Shown here: positions 2,843 to 33,026 of the stretch, piece after piece | Position numbering within the stretch: position 1 is the first letter of the stretch | How the letters are laid out: each line of letters starts with the position of its first letter | From: Halorientalis sp. IM1011 | GTDB taxonomy: Archaea; Halobacteriota; Halobacteria; Halobacteriales; Haloarculaceae | Direction of reading: 5' to 3' | DNA length: 64,000 nucleotides | Assembly: GCF_001989615.1 (NCBI RefSeq) | Contig: NZ_CP019067.1 | Location: 3,038,001-3,102,000, forward strand | Made by a program: the position numbers and the translations under genes | The notes under the pieces: generated by a model | The model's input: only the letters and a program-made list of their open reading frames with translations | Database searches by the model: none | What the model was told of the DNA's origin: nothing

Positions 2843-3118
2843 ATGTACGACCTGACGGGATTCCAGCGTGACCTGCTGTACGTCATCGCCGGCCGGGAGG
2901 AACCACACGGGTTGGCGATCAAGGAGGAACTCGAAGAGTACTACGAGAAAGAGATCCATCACGGGCGCCTCTATCCGAACCTCGACACGCTCGTCGACAA
3001 GGGGCTGGTGGAGAAAGGCCAGCGCGACAGGCGGACGAACTTCTACAGCCTGACGCGACGCGGACGGCGGGAGATCGACGCCCGACGCGAGTGGGAAGAA
3101 CAGTACGTCGACCTCTGA
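2843..3118 (+). CDS. PadR-family transcriptional regulator
   Basis: A 91-residue winged-helix protein. The segment TGFQRDLLYVIAGREEPHGLAI is the PadR first helix, followed by the recognition helix and wing (HHGRLYPNLDTLVDKGLVEKG, residues about 39-59) and the RRTNFYSLTRRG beta wing. It lacks the long C-terminal coiled-coil domain of larger PadR proteins, as is usual for the haloarchaeal short form. PadR proteins are dimeric repressors relieved by small molecules. A 15-bp palindrome abuts its TATA box, which suggests autoregulation. The convergent AI-2E-type transporter is its neighbour, but the orientation gives no evidence of control. Confidence 0.88.
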   Translation: MYDLTGFQRDLLYVIAGREEPHGLAIKEELEEYYEKEIHHGRLYPNLDTLVDKGLVEKGQRDRRTNFYSLTRRGRREIDARREWEEQYVDL

Positions 3119-3187
3119 AACGGCTGGCGTGGTGTCGGGTCACGGATCTGTCGGAACCTGAGACCGAGGGGTCTCGTTCCCTTCGGG

Positions 3188-4405
3188 CTAGCGTGTTTTC
3201 GGTCCGTCGTCGCTGTTCGACGCCCCGTCTACCGGCTGGTCGGCCGGTGACGGATCGTCCGCATCGTCGTGGCTGCCGTCGACGCTATACTTCGGATCGT
3301 CCGGTGGTGGCGTCGTCTCGGTCCGCGTCAGGTACGTCGGATCGACGGCGACGGGGCGAATCGTCGCGCCCGAGAGTAATTCAGGCAGGACGATCCGGGC
3401 AAAGTGAAACACGAGGACGAGGATGATCGGGCCGAGAAAGATGCCGTGCCAGCCGAACAGCAGGGGACCGAGGATGTACGAGAACATGACGAGCCCGATG
3501 TGGAGGTTCCGCCCGGAGACGTACGGGCGGAGGATGAAGTCGGGCAACAGGTCGACGACGACGATGGTCACGCCAGCCACGAGCGCGACGAAGCCGAAAC
3601 CACCGTCCTGCAGATAGGCCGCGTAGCCGAGATACCCCAGCATCGGGACGTAGATGATCTTCATGCCCACGACCGGGATGAGGCTCGCGACGCCGGTCAA
3701 CACCCCCAGCAGTGCCGGGTAGGGGATCTGCAGGCTCGGCGGGCCGAGGAGGTTGAGCAGGTTGAACGAGATGGCGCCGATCGCGCCGGTGATGATGGCG
3801 TTGAGGATGTTACCGAAGAAGATGCTCACGAAGTCCTGGTCGACCGCTCTGGCGTACGTTTCGAGGACGCCCCGTTCGTCGCCGAACTGGATGAACCAGC
3901 GCGACAGCCGACTGCCGTCCTTGAGCATGTAGTACGCCAGCGCGAACATCACGAAGAGGTGCAACAGGCCGGTGCCGACGAATCCGATATAGTCGAGTGC
4001 GGCGAGGAGCGTGCTCTGTGCGGTTTCGACGCTGCCCTGTTCGATCAGCCCCGCGGGGTTCTCGACGATGTCGGAGACGTTGACGTACGGTTCGATCAGC
4101 ACCATCACCGGCCCGAGTTGGTCTCCGTTCAGTTTGTCCAGTTCCTGGAGGGCTATCGCGATGGTGTACGCGAGTAATGCGACGGCAGGCAGCGCGAAGA
4201 CGGCGAGCGAGAGAACGGCTGCGACGCTACGACGACGGATCCGTCGGCGGATGCGCTTGTACGCCGGTCGCGTCGCGTAGTAGATGAAGATGGCGAACAC
4301 GAAGGTACCGATGAAAGCGTGGACGACGTAGGCGACGATGAGGCCGAACACGGCCGCGAGACCCCACCAGAACGCTCGCGCCCGGTCGACGTCGAGATCG
4401 ACCAT
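3188..4405 (-). CDS. AI-2E family transporter (PerM-like membrane protein)
   Basis: A 405-residue polytopic membrane protein with the AI-2E exporter layout: two N-terminal membrane helices (about 10-40), a pair around 60-85, an extracytoplasmic segment (about 90-140), then four to five C-terminal helices including the family motif VDLLPDFILRPYVSGRNLHIG and LGPLLFGWHGIFLGPIIL. The tail (about 355-405) is hydrophilic and Asp-rich. Despite the name, family members act in various roles including Na+/H+ exchange, so the substrate is unknown. Monocistronic; divergent from the MgtC-like gene at 4500 and convergent with padR. Confidence 0.85.
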   Translation of the reverse strand: MVDLDVDRARAFWWGLAAVFGLIVAYVVHAFIGTFVFAIFIYYATRPAYKRIRRRIRRRSVAAVLSLAVFALPAVALLAYTIAIALQELDKLNGDQLGPVMVLIEPYVNVSDIVENPAGLIEQGSVETAQSTLLAALDYIGFVGTGLLHLFVMFALAYYMLKDGSRLSRWFIQFGDERGVLETYARAVDQDFVSIFFGNILNAIITGAIGAISFNLLNLLGPPSLQIPYPALLGVLTGVASLIPVVGMKIIYVPMLGYLGYAAYLQDGGFGFVALVAGVTIVVVDLLPDFILRPYVSGRNLHIGLVMFSYILGPLLFGWHGIFLGPIILVLVFHFARIVLPELLSGATIRPVAVDPTYLTRTETTPPPDDPKYSVDGSHDDADDPSPADQPVDGASNSDDGPKTR

Positions 4406-4468
4406 ACCCCCCGTTTTTCACCTTACCTAATAAGAACCGCGGAGGGCGCGGTGGGCGGCCGCCGTGGT

Positions 4469-4476
4469 ACTTAACC
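4469..4476 (+). promoter_or_regulatory. TATA box deciding the MgtC-like start
   Basis: ACTTAACC lies 24-31 bases before GTG 4500, which predicts a leaderless start there. An in-frame GTG at 4464 would sit upstream of this box and is therefore disfavoured. Confidence 0.45.
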
Positions 4477-4499
4477 GGCTCAAGGGCGTAGCCCGACGG

Positions 4500-5768
4500 G
4501 TGAATCTCCTCCTGCAGACGATCCCTGCACCGCTCGACGCCGAGGTGACGCGCCTGGTGCTGGCGGCGGCACTGGGGATGTTCCTCGGGCTGGAACGGGA
4601 GTGGTCACAGAAGACGGCCGGCATCCGGACGTTCGCCCTCATCGGCCTGCTCGGTGCCGTCTTCACCGTCGTCGGGGTCGAACTTCTGGTGGTCGCCGGA
4701 GCTGTACTGGTGATCGTCCAGGGCGTCGTTCTTGCGGTTCAGGGCCTCCTCTCGGAGGAAGAGGGGCTCTCGCTGACCACCTCGGTCTCGATGCTCGTCG
4801 CGTACGGGATGGGGGCGCTGGTCGCCCGCGGATACGTCCTCGAAGGCGTCACGGTGGCCGTCGTCTCGTCGCTGGTGCTGGTACTCAAGCGCGAACTCCA
4901 CAGTTTCGCCTGGGGGCTGTCCCACGAGGAACTCCAGTCGGTGACGGAGTTCGCCATCCTCGCGTTCGTCGTCTATCCGCTCCTGCCGGCCGGGTCGCGG
5001 AGTCTGACTGTCTCCTCTCTCACCGTGTCGCTCGAACCGCGTGTCGTCTGGCTGATGGTGGTCACCGTAGCGGGGATCGGCATCGTCAACTACGCCGTGG
5101 TCCAGACCTACGGCGGACGCGGGATCGCAGTGACGGGCTTTTTCGGCGGGCTGGCCTCCTCGACGGCGGTGGTCGGGACGATGCTCGATCACGTCCGCCA
5201 GCACGACCGGGCGACCTCCTACGCGGTGGCCGCCGTGTTGCTGGCCGACGCGGCGATGGCGTTGCGGAACCTCGTCATCGCGCTCGTGTTCACCCTCCAG
5301 TCCGGGGTTCTGCTGGGCGCTGTCGTCCCCCTCGGGGCGGTCGTGCTGGGGAGCGTCGCGGTGGCCGCCTACACCGCCGACTGGCGCGAGTCCGTCGACA
5401 TCGACCTCCAGAGCCCCTTCTCCCTGCGGCAGGCGCTCGGGTTCGGAGCCATCTTCCTGCTGATCGTCCTCGCGGGCAGCGTCGCCCGCCAGCTGTTCGG
5501 CACGGCCGGGTTCTACGTGACGGCGGCCATCTCGGGGCTGGTGTCGAGTGCGGGCGCGACGACTTCGGCGGTGGTGCTCTATCGCGGCGGGTCGCTCACC
5601 GGACCCGAAGCGGTGTTCGCGATCCTGCTGGCGACGGCAGCGAGCATCCTCGTCAAGGCGGGGCTGACCGTCGCCAGCCCGAACCGGGGGTTCGCCTACC
5701 GGGTCACCGCCTGGAGCCTCGCGCTCATGGCCGGCGCGACCCTCGTCACGGTCGCGATAACCGCCTGA
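4500..5768 (+). CDS. MgtC/SapB family membrane protein with DUF4010 domain
   Basis: A 422-residue integral membrane protein. Residues 10-140 are an MgtC/SapB domain with the diagnostic LGMFLGLEREWSQKTAGIRTF and ALIGLLGAV. Residues about 160-420 are the DUF4010 domain, with 8-9 membrane helices and the motif FFGGLASSTAVVG. MgtC domains modulate magnesium homeostasis or P-type ATPases in bacteria; in two-domain archaeal proteins the role is not established. The start is taken as GTG 4500 because of the TATA box at 4469; the alternative GTG 4464 would add 12 residues. Followed by the aminotransferase 73 bases downstream on the same strand, but that gene has its own TATA-like box. Confidence 0.82.
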   Translation: MNLLLQTIPAPLDAEVTRLVLAAALGMFLGLEREWSQKTAGIRTFALIGLLGAVFTVVGVELLVVAGAVLVIVQGVVLAVQGLLSEEEGLSLTTSVSMLVAYGMGALVARGYVLEGVTVAVVSSLVLVLKRELHSFAWGLSHEELQSVTEFAILAFVVYPLLPAGSRSLTVSSLTVSLEPRVVWLMVVTVAGIGIVNYAVVQTYGGRGIAVTGFFGGLASSTAVVGTMLDHVRQHDRATSYAVAAVLLADAAMALRNLVIALVFTLQSGVLLGAVVPLGAVVLGSVAVAAYTADWRESVDIDLQSPFSLRQALGFGAIFLLIVLAGSVARQLFGTAGFYVTAAISGLVSSAGATTSAVVLYRGGSLTGPEAVFAILLATAASILVKAGLTVASPNRGFAYRVTAWSLALMAGATLVTVAITA

Positions 5769-5841: not shown

Positions 5842-7170
5842 ATGGACCGGGACAGTGTCGAGCCCGAGGTCGAGGAGTTGCCGGGCGAGCGGGCCCGGGA
5901 GCAGGTCGCCTACCACCACGAGACGGCCGCGCCGAGCACCTACGTTTACGAGTTCGTCTGGGATCACACGGCACCCGCGGCGGGACCGTTCTGCACGGAC
6001 GTGGACGGGAACGTGCTCATGGACTTCACCGGCCACGTCGGGGCGGCCCCGCTGGGCTACGACAATCCGACCCTGCGGGAGCGCCTCGCCGAGTTCGACC
6101 CGACCGACCCCACGAAGATCGCCGGGCAGGACTTCTACGCCGCCAGCGGCCCGGTCGGCGAGGCACCGATTCCCGGCCCTGCCGACCTGATGGACCGCCT
6201 CGTCGACGTGACCGACCACTACGGTATGGACACCGTCTTCCTCTCGAACAGCGGCGCGGAGGCCGTCGAGAACGCGATCAAGATCAGCTACGACCACACC
6301 GCCGGGAAGTACGCGATCACGTTCGAGGGGGCCTTCCACGGCCGGACGCTGGGGGCGCTCTCGCTCAACCGCTCGAAGGAGGTGTACCGCCGGCGGTTCC
6401 CCGAAATCGCCACCGTCCACGACGTGCCCTTCTGTTCCGACCGGACTTGCGACCCAGAGACCTGTGGGTGTGGCTTCTTCCTCGAGGACGGGTCCCGCCT
6501 CCGGCGGATGCTGGGGCCGGGAGGGTTCGTGAATCCCGACGAGGTCGCGTACGTCATCGTCGAACCGGTACAGGGCGAGGGCGGCTACCGGTTCCCCAGC
6601 GACGCCTTCGCGGCGGAACTGGCGGCGGTGGTCGACGAACACGATCTCCTGCTCGTGGCCGACGAGATCCAGTCGGGGATCGGTCGAACGGGGGAGTTCT
6701 GGGCGGCGGACCACTACCCGTTCGACCCCGACGTGATCGCGGCGGGCAAGGCGCTCCGGGTCGGTGCCACGATCGCCAGCGAGGACGTGTTCCCCGACGA
6801 GGAGAGTCGCCTCTCCTCGACGTGGGGCGCTGGCGACCTGCTGGCCTGCGCGCAGGGCGCGATCACGATCGACGTGATCCACGAGCAGAACCTGATGGAC
6901 AACGCCGTCGAACGCGGTCGGCAGTTCCGGGAAACGTTCGAGGCCGGACCGGCCATGACCGACGTTCGTGGGAAGGGACTGATGCTGGCCGTCGAGTTCG
7001 ACACGAAGGCGCGACGCGACGAGGTGATGGACGCGGCCTTCGGCCGCGGTCTGCTCACGCTCGGCTGCGGCCGGAAGACCCTGCGACTCCTCCCGCCGCT
7101 GGACGTGACCGAGCGGGAGATCGACCTCGGTGCGACCCTGCTGGCCGAGGCCGTCGCCGCGGCCGACTGA
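5842..7170 (+). CDS. Class III PLP-dependent aminotransferase
   Basis: A 442-residue enzyme of the GABA/acetylornithine aminotransferase family. Visible landmarks are the N-terminal DFTGHVGAAPLGYDNP, the PLP phosphate-binding FLSNSGAEAVENAIK, EGAFHGRTLGALSLNRSK, the cofactor Asp in LLVADEIQSGIGRTG, and the Schiff-base Lys303 in IAAGKALRVG. The amino donor and acceptor cannot be read from sequence; haloarchaeal relatives are annotated as GABA, ornithine or generic aspartate-family aminotransferases. An unusual Cys-rich insert sits at 198-210 (C198, C203, C208, C210), a possible metal site not found in textbook members. The ATG at 5842 is chosen over an upstream GTG at 5797 because the TATA-like TACTTATC (about 5812) lies between them. 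Confidence 0.88.
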   Translation: MDRDSVEPEVEELPGERAREQVAYHHETAAPSTYVYEFVWDHTAPAAGPFCTDVDGNVLMDFTGHVGAAPLGYDNPTLRERLAEFDPTDPTKIAGQDFYAASGPVGEAPIPGPADLMDRLVDVTDHYGMDTVFLSNSGAEAVENAIKISYDHTAGKYAITFEGAFHGRTLGALSLNRSKEVYRRRFPEIATVHDVPFCSDRTCDPETCGCGFFLEDGSRLRRMLGPGGFVNPDEVAYVIVEPVQGEGGYRFPSDAFAAELAAVVDEHDLLLVADEIQSGIGRTGEFWAADHYPFDPDVIAAGKALRVGATIASEDVFPDEESRLSSTWGAGDLLACAQGAITIDVIHEQNLMDNAVERGRQFRETFEAGPAMTDVRGKGLMLAVEFDTKARRDEVMDAAFGRGLLTLGCGRKTLRLLPPLDVTEREIDLGATLLAEAVAAAD

Positions 7171-7238
7171 CTCCTCGTTCCACTGCAGTCCCCGATGTCT
7201 GACGAAGATTTACAAGGTGTGGTGTGGTACCGATTAGC

Positions 7239-7463
7239 ATGTCTTCGGAGCCAGCCGGAACGGACGACGGTGTCGCGCCGCGGGAACAGGAGTTCACTGT
7301 CACGCGGAACAACACGTTCGAGTTCATGCCGGGCCCGCTGACCGGCATCTCCTGTCCCTGTTGTTTCAAGGACATGCTGCTGAAGGACGTGATCCGAGCG
7401 GGCGAGTGCAACAGCTGTGGCGCGGACCTGGAGCTGACGCTGACGGCGCGGGACGCCGACTGA
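7239..7463 (+). CDS. Small zinc-binding haloarchaeal protein
   Basis: A 74-residue protein with two Cys pairs: CPCC near residue 39 and CNSC about 20 residues later, enough for one zinc ribbon. The rest is acidic or short strands ending LELTLTARDAD. There is no enzymatic motif. The ATG 7239 lies about 27 bases after a TATA-like GATTTACA (7207-7214), so leaderless expression is likely; the upstream in-frame GTG 7224 is disfavoured. It follows the aminotransferase with its four-Cys insert by about 70 bases; a link is possible but unproven. Confidence 0.7.
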   Translation: MSSEPAGTDDGVAPREQEFTVTRNNTFEFMPGPLTGISCPCCFKDMLLKDVIRAGECNSCGADLELTLTARDAD

Positions 7464-7544
7464 TGGCGCAGCGGTGGTCGTTCTCGGTACGATCCGCCCT
7501 CCCGGACCCAACAGACCCTTTAGTCGGGTCCCCGAAGCAGGGCC

Positions 7545-7829
7545 ATGGCAGACACTGCGACGCTGACGATCGAGACCGAGGACGGCACCAGCGACGAACT
7601 CGAAGTCCCGACGGGACTGCTCGACATGCTCCGGGAGAGCGATGAGACCGACCCCGAGATCGTCGGCGACATCGCGATGATCGGCATGGCCCAGCGCATC
7701 CACGGCGCGATCCACCACGCGCAGGGCGAACCCGGCGAAGACGTACAGGCCGCCGAAGACGTGACGATGGATCTCTTCGAGGAGCGGTTCGGTCAGACCT
7801 TCGCCGACATGACCGGCCACGACCACTGA
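7545..7829 (+). CDS. Conserved haloarchaeal protein of unknown function (DUF7545-like)
   Basis: A 94-residue acidic protein beginning MADTATLTIETEDGTSDELEV (opening strands), followed by a helical segment (LLDMLRES, IVGDIAMIGMAQRIHGAIHHAQGE) and a C-terminal FGQTFADMTGHDH. I do not recognise a biochemical function. A TATA-like CCTTTAGT at about 7516-7523 supports the ATG at 7545 as a leaderless start. It converges on the riboflavin-pathway reductase, and the 31 bases between the stops end in a short T run (about 7856-7860). Confidence 0.7.
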   Translation: MADTATLTIETEDGTSDELEVPTGLLDMLRESDETDPEIVGDIAMIGMAQRIHGAIHHAQGEPGEDVQAAEDVTMDLFEERFGQTFADMTGHDH

Positions 7830-29616: not shown

Positions 29617-30585
29617 ATGGTTCGTCCGAGTCGCCAGCGGGAGCGCGAGCAGGACCGAGAGACCGAGAAAGAGACCGGGGACGACGAGGAGATGCAGAGT
29701 TGCCCCGAATGCGAGTCAGCAAACCTGGTATCGAGCGCTGACGGGGGTGAAATCGTCTGTGAAGACTGCGGGCTGGTGATCGAAGAGGAGAACATCGACC
29801 GGGGCCCCGAGTGGCGTGCGTTCAACCACAGCGAGCGCCAGAGCAAGTCCCGCGTGGGCGCGCCGACGACACAGACGATGCACGACAAGGGGCTGACCAC
29901 ACAGATCGACTGGAAGGACAAAGACGCCTACGGTCAGTCCCTGTCCTCGGAGAAGCGCAGTCAGATGCACCGCCTCCGGAAGTGGCAGGAGCGCATCCGG
30001 ACGAAAGACGCCGGCGAGCGCAACCTCCAGTTCGCGCTCTCTGAGATCGACCGCATGGCCTCCGCGCTCGGGGTGCCCCGCTCTGTGCGGGAGGTCGCCT
30101 CGGTCATCTATCGCCGGGCGCTCAACGAGGACCTCATCCGTGGCCGCTCCATCGAGGGCGTCGCCACGTCCTGCCTGTACGCCGCCTGCCGTCAGGAGGG
30201 CATCCCGCGCTCCCTCGAAGAAGTCTCGGACGTGTCCCGGGTCGACCAGAAGGAGATCGGACGGACCTACCGCTACGTCGCCCAGGAACTCAGCCTGAAG
30301 ATGGAGCCGGTCGACCCCAAACAGTACGTCCCGCGTTTCGCCTCCGACCTCAATCTCTCGGAAGAGGTCCAGTCCAAGGCCAACGAAATCATCGACGAGA
30401 CCGCCGAGAAGGGCCTGCTCTCGGGCAAGTCCCCGACCGGCTACGCCGCCGCCGCCATCTACGCCGCCTCCCTGCTCTGTAACGAGAAGAAGACCCAGCG
30501 CGAGGTCGCAGACGTCGCCCAGGTCACCGAGGTCACCATCCGAAACCGCTATCAGGAACAGATCGAAGCCATCGGCGTCCGCTGA
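29617..30585 (+). CDS. tfb: Transcription initiation factor TFB (TFIIB)
   Basis: A 322-residue TFB. The N-terminal zinc ribbon has C29, C32, C48 and C51; it is followed by the B-finger/reader region ([20 protein letters not shown]) and two cyclin folds (about 120-215 and 220-315), ending in [18 protein letters not shown], whose helix-turn-helix contacts the BRE. It recruits RNA polymerase to TBP-bound promoters. Haloarchaea carry several TFBs; which paralogue this is cannot be assigned from sequence alone. The ATG at 29617 is preferred over one six codons upstream because that one lies too near the TATA box. Confidence 0.95.
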
Positions 30586-30738
30586 CGCCACCTCTTTCTC
30601 GGTCTCCCGTCGACGGTGCCACAGCCTCGGGCTCGTCATCCCTACGGATTCGACATCTGACTCGATCCGACCCTCGTAGCCGGAAATCGGCACAACAGTC
30701 ATATCGGTGCCAGAGAAACGACAGGTCTAGACGAGCCA

Positions 30739-32274
30739 ATGGCAGAGCCACGGGACGACGCGTCGGCGGAGATCGCGGCCGCCGTGCACGCAGTGCTCGA
30801 CGATCCGGCCGCGGGGCGGACGCGACTCCCGACGCTGCTCGCCGCGCTCGAACGGGCGGATCGGCACGATCGGCTCTCGGCGGCCTGGGCACTGACGCTC
30901 GTGGCGACGGCCGACGCGGACATGGTCCAGCCGATCGCCAGACGGCTCGCCGACCGACTGGCGGCCGACGCCGAGCAACCCGAGACCCGGCACGCACTCG
31001 GCTATCTCCACGGGCGCTACCCCGAACGCGTCGACGCCGTCCTCGAAGAACTGGCCGAGGAGGCCGAGGAACGAGAGCGCCGTCGACGCTACCGGGAACT
31101 CTCACGGGGGTTCGCCCGGAGCGACTACGTGGGACAGGGCGAGACGAACCGCGACGTGGGCCGGACCAAGATGCCCGGGGAAGCCACCGCGTCTGGCCCC
31201 CGACGCGTCTACCACGAGGAGGGCGAGGCCATCGGCGGCCCGCCCGACGACACCCGCGACGACCCCCGGGACCGCCTCGACGACGAATCTGACGACGAGG
31301 ATCCCGGGAGCGAAGCGGCCGGTAACGAAGACGGGGGTGGTGGGAACGGAGCCGATGCCGAGGGCGACGACGCAGACGACACTCGGTCGTCGGCCGCCCG
31401 GCGACGCGAACGGGAAGCCGAACTCGAGGCGGTGGCCGATGCCGTCGACATCGAGGATATCGCCGCGGCCAGTCGGTTCGACGAGCTACAGATCGTCTCA
31501 CGCGGGATCGAGGGCCGGTTCGCGACCGTCTATCGGACACGGGCGGTCCTCGACGACGCCGAGGACGGCGTGGCGCTTTCGGTGTTCGATCCCCCCGAGG
31601 ACGAGGACGGATTCGCGGCCGACGTGACCGCACAGCTCCGCAACTGGGGGGTGGTGTCCGACCACGACGGCGTGGTCACGCTCTACGACTGGGGGACCGA
31701 GCCCTCGCTGTGGATGGCAACGGGGTTCACCGCCGAGCCGCTGTACGACCGGCTCGATCTCTCCATCGACGAGGCGGTCTGGAACGGCCGTCAGGTCGCC
31801 GAGGCGGTCGCTGCGATCCACCACCGCGGGGTCGTCCACGCCGGTCTCGATCCGTACAGCGTCGTCTACAGCGGGACGACCATCGCCGACCGGCAGCGCC
31901 CGCTGGTGTCGAACGTCGGGCTGTTGTCCGCGATGCGGAGCTACGTCGACCCGTCGTCGCTGCTCGACCCGCGCTTCGCAGCGCCCGAGTACTTCGACCG
32001 CGGCTACGGCGACGTGGATCACGCCACGGACATCTACCAGCTGGGGGCCGTCGTCTACTACCTCGTCACCGGTCGACCGCCGTTCCAGGGTACCTACGAC
32101 GAGGTCCGGACGGGGGTCCTCGAATCGACGCCGCCGCGCCCGTCGGCGATCAACCCCGAGATTCCGGCGTGGGTCGACGAGGTGCTCCGGACCGCGATGG
32201 CCAAACAGAAGCTCACCCGGTACGAGACGGCGACGCAGGTCGCGCGGGAACTAAAGCGGGGGGTCGACGGGTGA
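30739..32274 (+). CDS. HEAT-like repeat protein with a protein pseudokinase domain
   Basis: A 511-residue protein. Residues 10-115 are helical HEAT-like repeats; 120-240 is a disordered acidic linker; 250-511 has a protein-kinase fold with glycine loop (IVSRGIEGRFATVYRT), an APEYF motif, and a DIYQLGAVVYYLVTGRPPF F-helix. Catalytic residues are lost: the VAIK lysine is Ser281, the HRDLKPxN loop reads H367-A-G-L-D-P-Y-S, and DFG reads N392-V-G. It is therefore a predicted pseudokinase scaffold. The next gene overlaps it (GTGA) and encodes a membrane protein, so the two probably form a complex. Confidence 0.82.
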   Translation: MAEPRDDASAEIAAAVHAVLDDPAAGRTRLPTLLAALERADRHDRLSAAWALTLVATADADMVQPIARRLADRLAADAEQPETRHALGYLHGRYPERVDAVLEELAEEAEERERRRRYRELSRGFARSDYVGQGETNRDVGRTKMPGEATASGPRRVYHEEGEAIGGPPDDTRDDPRDRLDDESDDEDPGSEAAGNEDGGGGNGADAEGDDADDTRSSAARRREREAELEAVADAVDIEDIAAASRFDELQIVSRGIEGRFATVYRTRAVLDDAEDGVALSVFDPPEDEDGFAADVTAQLRNWGVVSDHDGVVTLYDWGTEPSLWMATGFTAEPLYDRLDLSIDEAVWNGRQVAEAVAAIHHRGVVHAGLDPYSVVYSGTTIADRQRPLVSNVGLLSAMRSYVDPSSLLDPRFAAPEYFDRGYGDVDHATDIYQLGAVVYYLVTGRPPFQGTYDEVRTGVLESTPPRPSAINPEIPAWVDEVLRTAMAKQKLTRYETATQVARELKRGVDG

Positions 32275-33026
32275 CGCCCCCGCTCCAGACATCGGTGTTC
32301 GCCCGCGACGCCGGGCTGGCGTTCGTCTTCTTCGTCGCCTTCTCCCTGATGGCCGTCCTCGGGATCAGATTCGCCCTCTACGCCTATCTCAACCGCAGTC
32401 GGACCGGGATCGAGGCCCAGGGAGCCCTCTGGACCTACCTGCTCGCGGTCGGCCTGACTGCCGCACTCTACGGCGTACTCGGCGTGGTCGAGGCCGCGAC
32501 GGCGGTCACCAGCCCGGCCGCGGCCGTGACCACGCCCTATCGCGACGGCGTCCTGCTGGCCTTCCTCCTGACGCTCGCGCTGACGATGCGCGAGATCGGC
32601 ACCAACGAGGCCCTCGTGAACGCCGGCCGGACGGCCGAGGAACCACCCGCGGCACGTCGGTCGGTCGAGGTCGGTTTCGGCCTGCTGGTCGGGGCGAGCC
32701 TGTTCGGGTCCGGCCTGCTCGGGCCGGTCGACGCGCTGACCGCCGTCGAGGGGGTCGCCGCGGTGGCCGTCGCCGGCTACGGGTTGATCCACGGCCGTCG
32801 TCACCTCGCCCGGTCCGCGGTCCGCGGGACGCTGCTGGACTCGCTGTTGCGTCACCTCCTCCCCGTCGTCGCGTTCGGCCTGCTCGTGCTCGTCGTCGAC
32901 CTCGCACTGCTGGTCGGACTCACCGTCGGCGTCGTCCGGCACATTCAGGTCGTGTTCGTCATCATGACCGCGACGACGCTGATGACCGCCACGATCAAAC
33001 TCCGCCAGAACGTGGCGGGCCTCTGA
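32271..33026 (+). CDS. Membrane protein coupled to the pseudokinase
   Basis: A 251-residue protein with about seven hydrophobic helices (near 12-35, 48-70, 82-102, 128-148, 155-172, 195-218, 222-242) and no soluble domain. The helix 82-102 is followed by TMREIGTNEALVNAG. I do not recognise a family with a known function. The GTG start overlaps the kinase stop codon (GTGA, 32271-32274), so translation is coupled to the pseudokinase gene; a signalling or sensing complex at the membrane is inferred. Confidence 0.75.
   Translation: MTPPLQTSVFARDAGLAFVFFVAFSLMAVLGIRFALYAYLNRSRTGIEAQGALWTYLLAVGLTAALYGVLGVVEAATAVTSPAAAVTTPYRDGVLLAFLLTLALTMREIGTNEALVNAGRTAEEPPAARRSVEVGFGLLVGASLFGSGLLGPVDALTAVEGVAAVAVAGYGLIHGRRHLARSAVRGTLLDSLLRHLLPVVAFGLLVLVVDLALLVGLTVGVVRHIQVVFVIMTATTLMTATIKLRQNVAGL

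Follow-up and report, generated by a model that had tools for sequence, protein, structure and literature searches.

Does a kinase-like gene without its catalytic residues work together with the membrane protein gene that overlaps it? Such a gene pair lies in a stretch of 64,000 nucleotides of the haloarchaeon Halorientalis sp. IM1011 (contig NZ_CP019067.1, positions 3,038,001 to 3,102,000 of the forward strand), which is called the window here. A preliminary description of the window, made from the letters alone, had named this pair (genes A and B below) an uncharacterised membrane-linked signalling pair, and we followed it up by genome surveys, alignments and structure models. Our favoured answer, to which we give a probability of about one half, is that the two genes make up a dedicated module, composed of a receptor-like seven-transmembrane (7TM) protein and a HEAT-pseudokinase acting as its cytoplasmic, non-catalytic adaptor. 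The case for a conserved module of two genes, one encoding a non-catalytic HEAT-kinase and the other a membrane protein with a receptor fold that belongs to no named family, is stronger than when it was first noted; the membrane-linked signalling role would be a further step. The coordinates of both open reading frames and their overlap, as given before, agreed with the sequence:

30739..32274, + strand: gene A, HEAT-pseudokinase of 511 amino acids (aa), ATG start, TGA stop
32271..32274, + strand: four-base overlap GTGA, in which the start of B overlaps the stop of A (sequence and gap survey)
32271..33026, + strand: gene B, predicted seven-helix membrane protein of 251 aa, GTG start (AlphaFold2 (AF2) model, positive-inside charges)

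Conservation of the gene pair

We searched 292 genomes of the class (haloarchaea) with single sequences and then with profiles. The single-sequence searches found B in 53 genomes and A-like kinases in 76, and 50 of the genomes with B had A upstream of it in the same orientation. By profile, with E up to 1e-40 defining its own family, gene B was present in 57 genomes from 17 genera (families f1, f2, f4, f6 and f10); G122, which has a C-terminal fragment of the gene (L108), was not counted. Gene A adjoined B in 55 of these 57 genomes. The objection that the pair might not be conserved among haloarchaea therefore fails, and adjacency by chance is excluded. Named carriers of the pair include Halorientalis, Halosimplex, Halorhabdus, Halapricum, Halovenus and Haloarcula. 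A survey of the phylum matched the B profile, of its own family or of the remote family described below, in 26 of 392 genomes, all in the order of the window.

The two genes were also close to each other. The gap between A and B had a median of -4 bp in 50 measured pairs, of which 35 overlapped and 39 lay within 30 bp; in five pairs of family f6 the genes were 380-1104 bp apart. The sequence distances of A correlated with those of B (r 0.94 over 50 pairs), and the partial r was 0.79 given the neighbouring GDPD (18 loci) and 0.68 given the neighbouring SR (16 loci).

Some loci differed in their detail. At the f6 loci L084, L085, L086, L088 and L090 a small zinc-finger-like gene was found on the opposite strand between A and B, with a response-regulator-like gene downstream. 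In G284 (L237 6712-8974, among the 55) A was split by a transposase-like frame and the reading frame of B was open. Neighbour labels of this kind (SRII-like transducer, zinc-finger-like, HalX-type, thermosome-like, transposase-like) were given by eye with no family search; neighbouring rhodopsins themselves were identified by a PF01036 match.

Gene B encodes a predicted seven-helix protein with a receptor-like fold

In the AF2 model of gene B (predicted local confidence (pLDDT) 90.1, predicted template modelling score (pTM) 0.88), seven helices of 24-33 residues were preceded by one short N-terminal helix, as the preliminary description had expected for its seven-helix protein:

32271..33026, + strand: gene B helices, residues 14-45, 48-80, 91-118, 127-150, 154-182, 188-215 and 219-250

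The assignment to no known family was borne out as well, since no Pfam or NCBIfam model matched up to E 1. Among 51 members of the gene B family, no Pfam model matched more than one sequence, and none of them was a 7TM-receptor model. On average, each sequence had 10.3 Lys and Arg residues at the helix ends proposed to lie inside and 2.8 at the outer ends, and by these positive-inside charges the sequences fit a topology with the N-terminus outside and the C-terminus inside.

The model was then compared with known structures. With VIA-align, G protein-coupled receptors (GPCRs) came first (best Z 18.1 for MRGPRX2, root-mean-square deviation (rmsd) 3.8 over 236 residues); nearly all of the best 50 rows were GPCRs, and rank 50 still reached Z 15.8. 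According to the documentation of VIA-align, helical models without a clear match typically have a best Z of about 14 and reach up to 13 at rank 50. The absence of microbial rhodopsins and transporters among the best 50 rows carries no meaning. A sequence search with B up to E 10 matched nothing in the PDB. Because B resembled GPCRs in structure and matched none by sequence, the likeness extends to the modelled fold only: this fold is receptor-like, but homology to receptors is not established by sequence. Two candidate relatives were rejected. Kinship with the neighbouring sensory rhodopsins (PF01036) had an hhalign probability of 0.9%, and origin as a detached HisKA_7TM domain (PF16927) one of 0.3%. 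The conserved Lys243 of B stands in helix 7 close to its cytoplasmic end, unlike the retinal lysine in the middle of helix G.

Residue conservation was examined in alignment A1, from which the membrane proteins of L113 and L108 were excluded. The cytoplasmic half of the membrane held 17 of the 20 most conserved positions (9.6 expected) and all 13 polar residues among the top 30; both counts were chosen after looking at the data, and this half-membrane count is weaker evidence than the test by quarters given below. Fold and topology are what would point to a receptor function of B.

Could B instead be a transporter, a channel or a membrane enzyme, with A as its regulatory or assembly subunit and not a signal carrier? 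We consider this doubtful, although it is the best of the alternatives. The seven-helix bundle is common to transporters and enzymes. A remote family of solitary B-like proteins also exists, as one would expect of proteins that have their own activity; it matches no Pfam family above the cut-off, apart from which one member shows a sub-threshold Cation_efflux match (E 0.022), and the window genome has one copy of it (G000:C1:1680196-1680858; L196 about 7001-7663). A eukaryotic parallel is given in parts of PMC7195191, where a SCYL1 homologue promotes the function of the Slo2 channel. Against this explanation, no transporter or enzyme family consistently matches B or its 50 relatives, and the listed fold matches of B are receptors and rhodopsins.

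Gene A has a kinase fold without the catalytic residues

Gene A was divided into three parts, and three replaced residues were located in the last of them:

30739..31116, + strand: HEAT-like N-terminal domain, residues 1-126, three helix pairs (AF2), HEAT_2 in relatives
31117..31389, + strand: acidic linker, residues 127-217, mostly disordered (pLDDT <50 over 124-196 and 198-205)
31390..32271, + strand: kinase-fold domain, residues 218-511, catalytic triad lost, matches to Pfam Pkinase and Stk1
31579..31581, + strand: Ser281 at the position of the beta-3 (VAIK) lysine (alignments)
31843..31845, + strand: Gly369 at the position of the HRD aspartate (alignments)
31912..31914, + strand: Asn392 at the position of the DFG aspartate (alignments)

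The AF2 model of gene A had a mean pLDDT of 84.5, with values mostly >90 over residues 218-511 and very low confidence over 124-205. The kinase domain matched Pfam Pkinase (E 3.3e-12, 46.8 bits versus a cut-off of 31.7) and superposed on Staphylococcus aureus Stk1 with a VIA-align Z of 28.8 (rmsd 2.0 over 254 residues, 22% identity). The kinase fold called clear in the preliminary description was therefore upheld as a fold, but its glycine loop is degenerate (GIEGRFATV, residues 256-264), for which the word was too strong. Pro416, Glu417, Asp431, Gly436 and Arg494, which are landmarks of the kinase lobe, were invariant in alignment A2 of the gene A family (54 rows; L078, L094 and L113 excluded as truncated or of uncertain coordinates). 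The fold of gene A is therefore under selection.

The window protein matched no Pfam HEAT model up to E 1. HEAT_2 was matched by 29 of the 54 family members (best E 3.2e-12), which justifies the name HEAT for the family, and the model contains three helix pairs within residues 5-126, in keeping with the N-terminal HEAT-like repeats described before. The fold search covered the whole model, and its matches were filled by kinases. The acidic linker described before was found as well. A hydrophobic segment was looked for in the gene A chain and none was found.

The replaced residues stand in the contexts V278-A-L-S281, H367-A-G369 and N392-V-G394, and alignment confirmed the residue numbers reported earlier; the position of the catalytic-loop Asn is Ser374. 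The HRD Asp was absent from all 57 aligned kinases (50 adjoining B and seven paralogues; L078, L094 and L113 are included here) and from eight more, that is, 0 of 65. In A2 the position was occupied by Gly in 41 rows, Ala in 9, Cys in 2, Ser in 1 and Thr in 1. As controls we hand-picked 25 kinases from the matches that do not adjoin B (L024, L025, L027, L028, L029 and 20 more): HxD was present in 22, the VAIK Lys in 21 and the DFG Asp in 24. Part of the gene A family, in a branch other than that of the window, keeps the DFG Asp (19/54) or the VAIK Lys (6/54), and therefore nucleotide binding may survive there; it is probably lost in the branch of the window. Orthologues that retain the catalytic residues would have spoken against a pseudokinase, but none has the HRD Asp, and this objection fails too. 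Judged from the residues, gene A should have lost catalysis, and loss of the HRD Asp is a trait of its whole family.

In a kinase tree, one branch separated the 22 kinases with the HRD Asp from the others, so that a single change between the two groups is enough, but the support was weak (76/34) and the root is not known. That the pseudokinase branch arose only once was not upheld; the controls L164, L165 and L167 also lack the HRD Asp. These three are kinase-like and unlinked to B, and L165 is surrounded by further kinase genes in G167:C42. The HRD Asp is also missing from the gene A paralogues without gene B at L114-L120, several of which are near thermosome-like genes.

A pseudokinase may also act on another enzyme; STRAD is an allosteric regulator of LKB1. 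That A regulates an active kinase or a sensor histidine kinase in this way is unlikely in our estimate. Active kinases of the HLD type do occur in other haloarchaea (the 22 of 25 controls with the HRD Asp), and histidine kinases with 7TM inputs are abundant, with 21 HisKA_7TM matches in the window genome (G000, 99.99% complete). In G000, however, gene A alone exceeds the Pfam cut-off for Pkinase (PF00069), and the four weaker matches are RIO1 or ABC1 proteins. There is thus no active Hanks-type kinase to regulate, which argues against A as the allosteric partner of one. G085, G292 and G293 likewise gave one match each at E<=1e-8, and the neighbours of the pair did not regularly include a kinase gene. 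For a further candidate role, that of a defence kinase, 29 PADLOC models matched A; the matches are generic, the 25 listed falling over the kinase domain. The comparison concerned the anti-phage kinases PD-T4-6, mad6 and PglW; B had no match.

Kinase-like proteins can also carry out other reactions, such as nucleotide transfer by SelO. The retained DFG Asp and VAIK Lys in the family rows counted above would suit unorthodox catalysis of this kind, or at least ATP-gated binding, in A. We regard it as very unlikely, since the window protein has lost the Asn of the catalytic loop as well as the Lys and the two Asp, and none of the 65 rows has Asp at the HRD position.

Neighbourhood of the pair

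About 7 kb on each side were fetched for 53 loci. In the window, TFB is directly upstream of A and GDPD is downstream, with no rhodopsin or transducer gene. A GDPD gene followed the pair in 18 of the 53 loci, and SRII-like and Htr-like genes stood divergently upstream in 16, all of family f1. Outside f1 these neighbours were mostly missing, which leaves the A-B pair by itself as the conserved unit. The sensory rhodopsin SRII-HtrII was rejected as an obligate partner of the pair because the window has neither gene. That A and B are an accessory of the SRII-HtrII phototaxis genes, which adjoin them in those 16 loci, is hardly credible, since the window lacks both genes and has TFB directly upstream, the fetched stretch of the 37 other loci has no SRII-like gene, only one Htr-like match (L105) was found outside f1, and the pair persists in genomes without neighbouring rhodopsin genes.

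In relatives, the SRII-like and transducer-like genes are located between TFB and A (L062 oriented 2976-5417 and 2254-2982), which corresponds to about 30585-30739 in the window. The window genome gave one weak Bac_rhodopsin match (E 1.8e-10), versus 3 to 9 in the seven congeners searched.

Proposed function of the module

In the module that we favour, gene B would be a receptor-like seven-helix membrane protein with its N-terminus outside and its C-terminus inside and a GPCR-like fold, and gene A would be its adaptor on the cytoplasmic side, acting without catalysis. Either the pseudokinase domain or the HEAT-like domain, or both, would hold B, and the other part would use the flexible acidic linker to bind a downstream partner. 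If B changed in response to a ligand, a lipid, or an osmotic or other physical cue, A would in turn change what it keeps bound or lets go, and phosphate transfer by A would have no part in the signalling step. The adaptor model fits because of the gene overlap, the correlation of A and B distances and the conserved polar residues in the cytoplasmic half of B. The conserved pair suggests signalling without phosphorylation. We propose more tentatively the full form of this idea, in which an archaeal GPCR-like receptor passes its signal to a dedicated HEAT-pseudokinase in a phosphorylation-free pathway, in a genome with no active Hanks-type kinase.

Several results weigh against the receptor and adaptor module. 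The remote solitary family (35 rows) shares RHLLP-like and (K/R)xRQ motifs with B, and no gene A match was found at the 11 loci examined; the two motifs therefore need not be a docking site for A and may serve gene B itself. G024 has B without an adjoining A (A is about 92 kb off on the same contig), G116 has B with copies of A elsewhere, and A-like paralogues occur without B at seven loci. The partial r of A and B dropped to 0.54 given the neighbouring transducer, HTR (17 loci), and r between B and HTR was 0.96, so shared descent explains much of the A-B correlation. For the fold of B, helical bundles easily reach a high Z, and Foldseek gave a best E of 1.3e-3 and TM-scores of about 0.5-0.6 to proteins that included microbial rhodopsins (CryoR1, 0.59). 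Averaged by depth, the conservation of B did not peak at the cytoplasmic end (means by quarter 0.45, 0.58, 0.62 and 0.53), and 7707 of 10000 permutations were as high in the cytoplasmic quarter. Physical contact of A and B, like the receptor function, the direction of the signal and the identity of signal and partner, is an inference.

Comparison with known systems

Much work has been done on the pseudokinases of eukaryotes, and a classification of those of bacteria is now under way. In the literature that we searched on archaeal pseudokinases, GPCR-like archaeal proteins and HEAT-kinases, no account of this pair was found, although the survey PMC6997932 may mention one; the parts of a review of archaeal modification that name Hanks-type kinases mention no pseudokinase (PMC7226565). 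Within the same literature, a conserved archaeal pseudokinase with its own membrane partner has no earlier account. The pair is a compact unit over the 17 sampled genera, and in the window genome A is the sole Hanks-type fold above the cut-off. It may thus offer a clean system for the role of a kinase fold without phosphorylation and without an active Hanks-type relative in the cell.

Gene A has the kinase fold in common with the PASTA/Hanks-type Ser/Thr kinases (Stk1, PknB), but it is without the catalytic Lys, the HRD Asp and the DFG Asp, has a HEAT-like domain and has no hydrophobic segment. Closer in its losses are the bacterial pseudokinase families ActPs1-3 and GLW. The parts of PMC12599244 that deal with them describe three degraded catalytic motifs, as in A, and a common association with the membrane, through segments in the same chain and in bacterial lineages. 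In our pair, by contrast, the seven helices are encoded by the separate overlapping gene B and none is in the A chain, and HRD is replaced by HxG (HAG in the window protein) and not by GLW. YukC/EssB of type VII secretion is also a prokaryotic membrane-linked pseudokinase, but it is described in parts of PMC9600267 as a component of a secretion machine.

Gene B resembles the microbial sensory rhodopsins and the HisKA_7TM receptors in that these, too, have seven helices and are haloarchaeal and sensory, but the profile probabilities given above separate it from both, and B has no HisKA domain. SCYL1-type eukaryotic pseudokinases combine a kinase-like domain and HEAT repeats in one protein, as does A, in which the order is reversed with HEAT first; this likeness is one of domain content, and archaea are not known to have a vesicle coat. 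With the animal class A GPCRs, B shares no sequence match but a seven-helix fold and a topology with the N-terminus outside and the C-terminus inside, both predicted. If the module exists as proposed, it would be a receptor-to-adaptor pathway built from two folds that are best known from animal signalling.
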